This document shows positions 2,405-27,702 of a stretch of 49,267 nt of DNA, one piece after another. The notes under the pieces are model-generated. The model ran no database searches, was not told the DNA's origin, and worked only from the letters and a program-made list of their open reading frames with translations. Position 1 is the first letter of the stretch. Each line of letters opens with the position of its first letter. The position numbers and the translations under genes were made by a program. This DNA is from Coriobacteriia bacterium. GTDB lineage: Bacteria > Actinomycetota > Coriobacteriia > WRKU01 > WQUG01. The stretch is taken from the NCBI GenBank assembly GCA_009784345.1, contig WRBW01000005.1:1-49267 (forward strand), given 5' to 3'.

Positions 2405-2462
2405 AGCGGCGGAGTGCGTCCAATCCAGTTAGTCACTGCTGGTGTGGACGCACTCCCCCGCT
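2405..2462 (-). terminator. Terminator made of two inverted motif copies
   Basis: AGCGGCGGAGTGCGTCCA (2405-2422) and TGGACGCACTCCCCCGCT (2445-2462) are complementary at 17 of 18 positions. The loop can fold again (CCAG/CTGG). Read on the minus strand the hairpin is followed by CTATTTAATTTTT and so can end transcription of the helicase gene; on the plus strand it is followed by TTTTT. Both arms are copies of the 15-bp dispersed motif. Inverted pairs of uptake sequences serve as terminators in Neisseria and Haemophilus in the same way. Confidence 0.75.
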
Positions 2463-2501: not shown

Positions 2502-3740
2502 CTATCTTCTGCGGCCGCGACCTCTGCCACCCCCGCCTTTTCTGTGAGAGAAGGGAACAGCTTTTTTCTTGACAGCTTTGCGGTCCTTTGCGGGCACAAT
2601 ACGCTCGGGGTTGTAGGCAAAACCTTTCAGATCCGACACCGGAATGACGGCTTTCGTCAGGTATTCGATGTCGCGAAAGGCAGAGATTTCTTCAGGCGCC
2701 ACAAAGGTGATGGCGTCGCCACTTTGGTCGGCGCGGCCCGTGCGGCCGATACGGTGCACGTAGTCTTCGGGCGTGACGGGCACGTCATAGTTGATGACCG
2801 TGTCGATGTTGTCGACGTGAATGCCGCGCGCCATGACGTCAGTCGTGACCAGAATGTCGATGCGATCCTTCATAAAGTCGCCCAGGGCACGGGTGCGCTG
2901 CGACTGGTTACGGTCGCCGTGAATCGCCTGATTCTTGATCTTGTTCTTGCCCAGAATGCGCGAGACCATGTCGGCCCGGCGCTTTGTGCGGGTAAAGACG
3001 AGCGTCTTGCCGGTTGACTTGCTTTCAAGTAGTGCTAGCAGCAGGTCAGCTTTTTGGTTGAAGACCACGGGCATGCAGGTCTCGGTTATCTGGCGTGCGG
3101 TTTCGCCCTTGCGTGCGATCTCGACAGTCACCGCACCCTTCATGTGCGTGCCGACGACTTTGTTTATTTCGCTGCCGATGGTCGCGCTGAACAGCAGCTT
3201 TTGCGAATCTGCCGGAATCATACCCAGGATCTTTTTCATAGGGGGCCAAAAGCCCATGTCCAGCATACGGTCAGCTTCATCAAGTACCAACACCTGAATC
3301 TGGCTCAAGTCGATGCGCTTGTCGTCAATCAGGTCGATGAGGCGACCAGGCGTTGCCACCAGCACATCTACGCCGCGCGCCAGACGCTCCAGCTGTGGCT
3401 TGTACTTGATACCACCCACGACGCTGCGCACCTTATACTGCGATGGCTGAGCCACCACGCGTGCCACCTTTTCCACCTGTGCGGCAAGCTCGCGCGTAGG
3501 CACAACAATCAGGGCATGGGGCACGGGGCGCTTGCGCGAAGCCCGCGTGATATTTTGCATCAGCGGCAGCACGTAGGCCGCCGTCTTACCCGTACCCGTT
3601 TGCGCACAGGCCACGACATGCTTGCCGTCAAGCGCAGGCGGAATCGAACCCTCCTGCACCGGCGTTGGCTCGCTGTATCCGAGGTCTGAAACGGCACGCA
3701 AAACCTGGCTGTTCAGACCCAATTCTTCAAATGTTTTCAT
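2502..3740 (-). CDS. DEAD-box ATP-dependent RNA helicase (RhlE-like)
   Basis: A 412-residue DEAD-box helicase that unwinds RNA with ATP, probably in ribosome assembly or RNA decay. The Q motif region is at residues 7-32, motif I is AQTGTGKT (46-53), motif Ia PTRELA, motif II DEAD (154-157) and motif III SAT. Motif VI is HRIGRTGR in the second RecA-like domain. The C-terminal tail is short and basic (GGGGRGRGRRR), as in RhlE proteins, with no DbpA-type RNA-binding domain. The start at 3740 follows AGAAAGAGACAT, a GA-rich binding site. It ends at the motif-built terminator. Family is sure; RhlE rather than CshA/DeaD is a judgement from the short tail. Confidence 0.9.
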   Translation of the reverse strand: MKTFEELGLNSQVLRAVSDLGYSEPTPVQEGSIPPALDGKHVVACAQTGTGKTAAYVLPLMQNITRASRKRPVPHALIVVPTRELAAQVEKVARVVAQPSQYKVRSVVGGIKYKPQLERLARGVDVLVATPGRLIDLIDDKRIDLSQIQVLVLDEADRMLDMGFWPPMKKILGMIPADSQKLLFSATIGSEINKVVGTHMKGAVTVEIARKGETARQITETCMPVVFNQKADLLLALLESKSTGKTLVFTRTKRRADMVSRILGKNKIKNQAIHGDRNQSQRTRALGDFMKDRIDILVTTDVMARGIHVDNIDTVINYDVPVTPEDYVHRIGRTGRADQSGDAITFVAPEEISAFRDIEYLTKAVIPVSDLKGFAYNPERIVPAKDRKAVKKKAVPFSHRKGGGGRGRGRRR

Positions 3741-4043
3741 ATGTCTCTTTCTGTAATGAGGGCTCTTTTGAGCATACTCTTAGTTGGTTCTGTAAGGGGT
3801 GTGCTCTGCTTGAAGGGCAGTAACGGGCGGAGTGCGCCCATGCCTCGAGCAAAGAAAGAGCGGGGAACCCCCGCTTTCAGTACATACCAGTATAGCACCT
3901 GCAGCCGAGCACCATCAGAGCTGCGGCAGATTCTGCTTGAGCCTCGGGTACAGAAAGCAAGTGAATGCACCATAAAACATGGTGCTAATACCATAATTTG
4001 TGGTTTCATGGCGGAGTGCGCCCATACCAGACACAGGGTAGTG
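3741..4043. repeat. Intergenic region with two motif variants and hairpins
   Basis: No gene seen in these 303 bases. GGCGGAGTGCGCCCA occurs twice (3826-3840 and 4010-4024), the dispersed motif with one change (T to C). Between them AGCGGGG/CCCCGCT (3859-3865 and 3869-3875) is a perfect 7-bp stem that on the minus strand is followed by CTTTCTTTG, a likely terminator for the TM2 gene. GCACCAT/ATGGTGC (3967-3985) is a further perfect 7-bp stem. The two motif copies are in the same orientation, so they do not pair with each other. Confidence 0.6.
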
Positions 4044-27439: not shown

Positions 27440-27702
27440 GCACCCCAGACTAGAGGGCAAAGTCAAAGTTGGAGCACCAGAAATATTACAACAATGTTAA
27501 GAAGTCCCTGGCGGAGTGCGTCCATGCTATCGCGACTCATCACACTGAGTGAGCGGACGGGCGGGGACGCACGCCCCTACAAACTCTGCATGCGTCTCAA
27601 GCCTTGTATCTGCGCCATTTTGGCATATTTGGAGTAGATATTTTTTGAGTGGCGTGGATAAAGGTGGCGGAGGGAGGCGGAGTACGTCCATGCTATCGCA
27701 TT
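27440..27702. repeat. Intergenic region with two motif copies and a hairpin
   Basis: No gene is seen. An exact GGCGGAGTGCGTCCA is at 27510-27524 and GGCGGAGTACGTCCA at 27676-27690. Both are followed by TGCTATCGC, so the two copies share 24 bases and are likely duplicates. Between them GGGCGGGGACGCACGCCC (about 27559) folds into a short stem, followed by CTAC as in the other GC-rich hairpins at 15230. The second copy is 13 bases after the stop codon of the next gene, on its 3' side. Confidence 0.6.

Follow-up and report, generated by a model that had tools for sequence, protein, structure and literature searches.

Short sequence words that direct DNA uptake are stated to be known from only two families, the Neisseriaceae and the Pasteurellaceae (PMC12616744). 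In Neisseria and the Pasteurellaceae, facing copies of uptake words act as terminators equipped with A-tails and T-tails (PMC1852404; PMC3630211). Neisseria meningitidis Z2491 carries 226 facing versus 5 back-to-back DUS pairs (PMC1852404, Table 5); about 55% of the best Neisseria terminators contain the word, and the corresponding share of Pasteurellaceae terminators is 17–29% (PMC1852404). A first-pass annotation of the DNA analysed here had described inverted uptake-word pairs as common terminators in Neisseria and Haemophilus. In the actinobacterium Micrococcus luteus, a Tad-type pilus is needed for transformation (PMC6370729). When uptake sequences and Coriobacteriia were searched for jointly in the open literature, nothing was found.

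Here we describe a dispersed word in the assembly of a Coriobacteriia bacterium (1.48 Mb) and a facing pair of this word at positions 2405–2462 of one contig stretch of 49,267 nt, referred to as the window. Like the DUS terminators of the Neisseriaceae (PMC1852404, PMC2397512, PMC3630211), the system consists of a short non-palindromic word present in hundreds of copies, with facing pairs far more frequent than back-to-back ones, hairpins with A-tails and T-tails where pairs lie at gene ends, and different dialects among genera of one family. It differs from them in that the word is unrelated and belongs to another phylum, the pilus found is of the Tad type, and uptake is something that we infer. 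The word is also sparser (175 exact copies in 1.48 Mb, versus about 1,900 in N. meningitidis), and its pairs make up a few percent of terminators, compared with about 55% of the best ones in Neisseria. The Pasteurellaceae USS (AAGTGCGGT) shares with it a firm core with long, weakly conserved flanks, copies within genes, and the placement of a minority of copies in terminator pairs. However, the flank of the present word is A-rich on the 5' side, whereas the USS, from a different phylum, has strong A/T-rich blocks on the 3' side; the AGTGCG common to both cores is short and probably coincidental. REP/BIME and similar intergenic palindromes also place repeated hairpins at gene 3' ends, but their unit is an intergenic palindrome, whereas here the unit is a single word that is mostly unpaired and, in over half of its copies, located in genes, where one frame is preferred.

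The facing pair downstream of the helicase gene

The pair is situated between two genes of the minus strand, a DEAD-box RNA helicase gene (positions 2502–3740, with Pfam matches to DEAD and Helicase_C), which is transcriptionally upstream of the hairpin, and the next gene on the same strand, encoding an AAA_14/DUF4143 ATPase (positions 1068–2291, start codon uncertain). The left arm (2405–2422, plus strand, AGCGGCGGAGTGCGTCCA) is a forward word copy with its core GGAGTGCGTCCA at 2411–2422 and an AGCGG 5' extension, and the right arm (2445–2462, minus strand, TGGACGCACTCCCCCGCT) is an inverted copy with its core at 2445–2456 and the same 5' extension, so that both arms carry the exact 12-mer. 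Direct reading bore out the first-pass description of two facing copies paired at 17 of 18 positions, the sole mismatch being C:C at 2410/2457. In the predicted fold, the 22-nt gap between the arms (2423–2444) contains an inner helix of CCAGT (2425–2429) with GCTGG (2438–2442) and an 8-nt loop; this helix is a product of the word's weak 3' flank, which likewise faces itself and has the approximate consensus ACCWGC in a profile of 312 word copies. The segment 2395–2475 folds with −42.0 kcal/mol on the minus strand and −43.7 kcal/mol on the plus strand (z of −8.5 and −8.2, respectively), and no shuffled sequence folds as well.

The T-rich flanks reported on both sides are likewise present, as TTTTT on the plus strand (2462–2466) and TATTTAATTTTT on the minus strand (about 2393–2404). 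The tail in the helicase direction is moderate, broken up by A and the weaker of the two. Approximate terminator scores, computed with ViennaRNA energies in the published d'Aubenton-Carafa formula, are +19.3 for the helicase direction and +37.6 for the opposite one. The locus therefore presents what an intrinsic terminator displays, a stable G+C-rich stem-loop located 3' of a stop codon (39 nt from the helicase stop to the outer stem end) with a U-rich tail after the stem, and RNA polymerase would be expected to stop there.

An Rfam scan of the hairpin yielded just two sub-threshold matches to eukaryotic microRNAs, which were dismissed because any long hairpin yields such matches. A mobile element was considered and rejected, as the loop sequence CCAGTTAGT does not recur beside the word elsewhere in the assembly. 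This sequence is abundant in a related genome (G007), where it forms part of an unrelated tandem protein repeat: long arrays of about 153 bases per unit (L193, L197, L199 and L200), spread over several contigs, contain CCCCATGCCCAGAG and CCAGTTAGT and are probably repeats of a large surface protein.

The closest relatives of the helicase in the genome collection (72–78% identity) come from Coriobacteriia MAGs of the samples Lab288 and Emb289, which are gut samples of Labiotermes labralis and Embiratermes neotenicus (PMC7024585); the organism is related to termite-gut actinobacteria. We rejected a conserved terminator of the helicase gene, since the relatives carry other sequence at this place, one of them (L033) with a different hairpin. 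Two single copies of the variant GGCGGAGTGCGCCCA occur 5' of the helicase gene, at 3827–3840 and 4011–4024, on the same strand and 184 bases apart.

Abundance and placement of the word

In the whole 1.48-Mb assembly, GGAGTGCGTCCA has 175 exact copies, 99 on one strand and 76 on the other, compared with none for the reversed control. In the first 1.04 Mb sampled, this word is the commonest 12-mer and GAGTGCGTCCA the commonest 11-mer, and 313 copies are found within one mismatch. The profile of the word extends into an A-rich stretch followed by GYGGCGGAGTGCGTCCATACCWGC; 5' of the core, single copies contain 3.3 A per 10 nt versus 2.3 at random. Pattern counts cover all 1.48 Mb, and statistics on gene context cover 1.04–1.18 Mb and use approximate gene calls from a simple, purpose-made hexamer-based finder.

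The sampled contigs contain 130 exact copies, of which 75 lie in called genes, 47 are intergenic and 8 fall at edges, which corresponds to an approximately threefold intergenic enrichment given that 13% of the sample is non-coding by these gene calls. Within genes, one frame is dominant for each strand: peptides of the AECVH or AECVQ kind are encoded by 75 of the 96 copies on the same strand, and peptides of the MDALR kind by 64 of the 81 copies on the opposite strand. Both types of word-encoded peptide recur in unrelated proteins. For 60 copies a homologous stretch was available in relatives, and 42 of these align gap-free; this points to substitution rather than insertion as the origin of many copies.

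The word is spaced more evenly than at random, with 43 distances of 100–1000 bases versus about 76 expected (at most one mismatch). Neighbouring words 100–500 bases apart tend toward opposite strands; the strand alternation (164 versus 106) was seen at the level of at most one mismatch and did not reach significance among exact copies or at distances over 1 kb. Both strands are mixed along contigs of 33–100 kb, a length too short for a full test of strand bias.

Facing pairs across the assembly

Within the window, a scan for word copies with at most one mismatch revealed no other close facing pair, and at the two-mismatch level a single weak candidate appeared at 27513/27564 (gap 39). The first-pass view that the paired use is visible once, the other copies being single, is thus accurate for the window, but it does not extend to the genome, where the strict pattern gives 12 facing versus 1 back-to-back pair in the whole assembly. 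When pairs within 60 nt and with at most one mismatch per arm were counted in 1.04 Mb, 15 were facing, 1 back-to-back and 2 on the same strand, and random placement that preserved the genic and intergenic numbers produced a mean of 2.2 facing pairs and at most 8 in 300 trials. Exact facing pairs at gaps of 3–33 nt numbered two, compared with about 0.16 expected from the copy numbers.

Gaps of 4 and 11–12 nt are dominant among the facing pairs; the gap of 22 nt is that of the pair at 2405–2462, which is the longest and most stable of them. Facing pairs with a gap of 45 nt or less are absent from the interior of called genes. Where neighbouring genes are co-directional, 12 of the 14 facing pairs between them are nearer to the stop than to the following start (p 0.013); single copies display no such preference (36 of 70 nearer to the stop). 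The genome-wide count of inverted pairs, which the first-pass annotation had put forward as a check of its terminator reading, accordingly turned out in its favour: facing pairs recur, far outnumber back-to-back ones and sit at gene 3' ends.

As a class, the facing pairs also fold strongly, and the hairpins with a 4-nt gap display modest covariation between their arms (9 of 500 shuffles reach the observed score). A good U-tail accompanies only about half of the pairs, and about half score above 0 in some direction. Other genera of the family also contain facing pairs: four lie in G003, and among those in G007 one (L217) is followed by TTTTT. A simple scan detected terminator-like hairpins at 189 of 547 gene ends, of which facing word pairs account for only 3–4.

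Dialects within the family

A survey of 400 genomes from the class showed background numbers of GGAGTNNGTCCA (0–10 copies) outside the family of the window. Inside the family, it reaches 296 copies in the genome of the window (G000), 216 in G007, 53 in G010, 27 in G008 and 26 in G009, the others being near background. Three genera of this family favour three dialects, GAGTGCGTCCA, GAGTACGTCCA and GGAGTYTGTCCA: G003 has 223 copies of GAGTACGTCCA and 3 of GGAGTGCGTCCA, G007 has 97 copies of GGAGTYTGTCCA, and G000 has its 175 copies of GGAGTGCGTCCA. Two genomes of the window's own genus, G009 and G010, contain few word copies along with the same competence genes, and in samples of 140–160 kb no replacement word stood out in either; this scarcity needs explaining, for example by loss.

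Competence genes

The assembly encodes a ComEA-ComEC-HolA operon (G000:C8:11547–15620, L131), DprA, and a Tad/Flp pilus cluster with CpaB, a CpaE-like protein, TadA and two TadB/C-like genes (G000:C2:7704–12975, L118). A PilB-class ATPase outside the Tad/Flp cluster was not found in the assembly, and a crude search detected no classical type IV pilin N-termini. This gene set resembles that of M. luteus (PMC6370729), in which actinobacterial ComEA and ComEC are likewise combined with a Tad/Flp pilus and a ComG-type pilus was not found; it differs in that competence of the present organism is predicted from its genes, and that review mentions no uptake word for M. luteus. Because the same competence genes occur in relatives devoid of the word, they permit, rather than prove, a role in uptake.

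Discussion

We consider it probable that the facing pair at 2405–2462, which separates the DEAD-box helicase gene from the next one, serves as an intrinsic (Rho-independent) terminator in both directions and is built from a dispersed word resembling an uptake sequence. Since single copies are already A-rich 5' of the core, two facing copies would bring together a stem, formed by the words, and U-rich tails in both directions, provided by the flanks; the gain of one inverted copy would then be enough to make a terminator. The first-pass proposal that the pair terminates the helicase transcript is favoured by the short distance to the stop codon, the U-rich tail and the recurrence of pairs at gene 3' ends. 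Counting against it are the convincing U-tail in only about half of the pairs, the predominance of single copies, the location of more than half of all copies in genes, the A-interrupted tail in the helicase direction, the small share of facing pairs among terminator-like gene ends, the modest covariation of the arms, the scarcity of the word in G009 and G010, and the fact that the hairpin is not kept after the helicase gene in relatives. The pair is thus a plausible terminator at this site, and facing pairs would form a minor terminator class genome-wide.

The pairs lacking a good U-tail, which are nevertheless strongly folded and placed at gene 3' ends, would also suit a mainly post-transcriptional hairpin that, in the manner of REP elements, blocks 3' exonucleases or marks a processing site where the helicase mRNA ends, with transcription itself stopping further downstream or through Rho. 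The pair at 2405–2462, however, is flanked by U-tails in both directions and scores positively as a terminator, and we regard this explanation as improbable. Somewhat less probable still is that the copies are binding sites only, recognised in double-stranded DNA by an uptake receptor or by a protein that organises the chromosome, with the facing arrangement serving as a dimer site or arising as a by-product, without consequence for RNA. The mostly single and often genic occurrence of the word is consistent with such a role, and the preferred gaps of 4, 11–12 and 22 nt could reflect helical phasing; yet random placement predicts as many facing as back-to-back pairs, against the 15 versus 1 seen, and a role in DNA alone does not predict that close facing pairs avoid genes and sit near stops. 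As for a chance encounter of two copies, the word is indeed common, but the excess of facing pairs over expectation, both for exact copies and at one mismatch, refutes this idea for the pairs as a class and makes it very improbable for this one. The terminator reading remains the one that we prefer.

Regarding the word itself, it occurs far above chance, in genes and between them and on both strands, has genus dialects, forms facing pairs at gene ends and coexists with an uptake machinery. By analogy with Neisseria and Haemophilus, it is best read as an uptake-sequence-like motif of a Coriobacteriia family, and it would promote DNA uptake; we describe it as working like an uptake sequence, without filing it as a proven one. 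The occurrence of the competence genes in relatives without the word would also fit a signal for replication, recombination or segregation (Chi-, KOPS- or parS-like), or else a restriction/methylation site, the facing pairs of which happen to act as terminators. Chi and KOPS are biased toward one strand, whereas the present word is found on both strands of the longer contigs, and a non-palindromic 12-mer with extended flanks, even spacing, a preferred frame and genus dialects matches uptake sequences better. We hold a signal of this kind to be possible but rather unlikely, and it bears on the word, not on the terminator.

Uptake words are not known from the phylum of this organism, and finding a dispersed word in different dialects within an actinobacterial family is more surprising than the terminator itself. 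We give roughly even credence to the wider proposal that an uptake-word system evolved here for a third time, independently and outside the Pseudomonadota, that its words differ by genus within one actinobacterial family and are read by a competence machine based on a Tad/Flp pilus, and that its facing pairs were taken over as terminators, as in Neisseria. If true, the word and its dialects would represent a third, convergent origin of such systems, with another envelope and another pilus, and recurring facing-pair terminators would follow predictably, as a by-product, wherever such a word has an A-rich flank. The word also provides a testable prediction on DNA exchange in uncultured gut bacteria.
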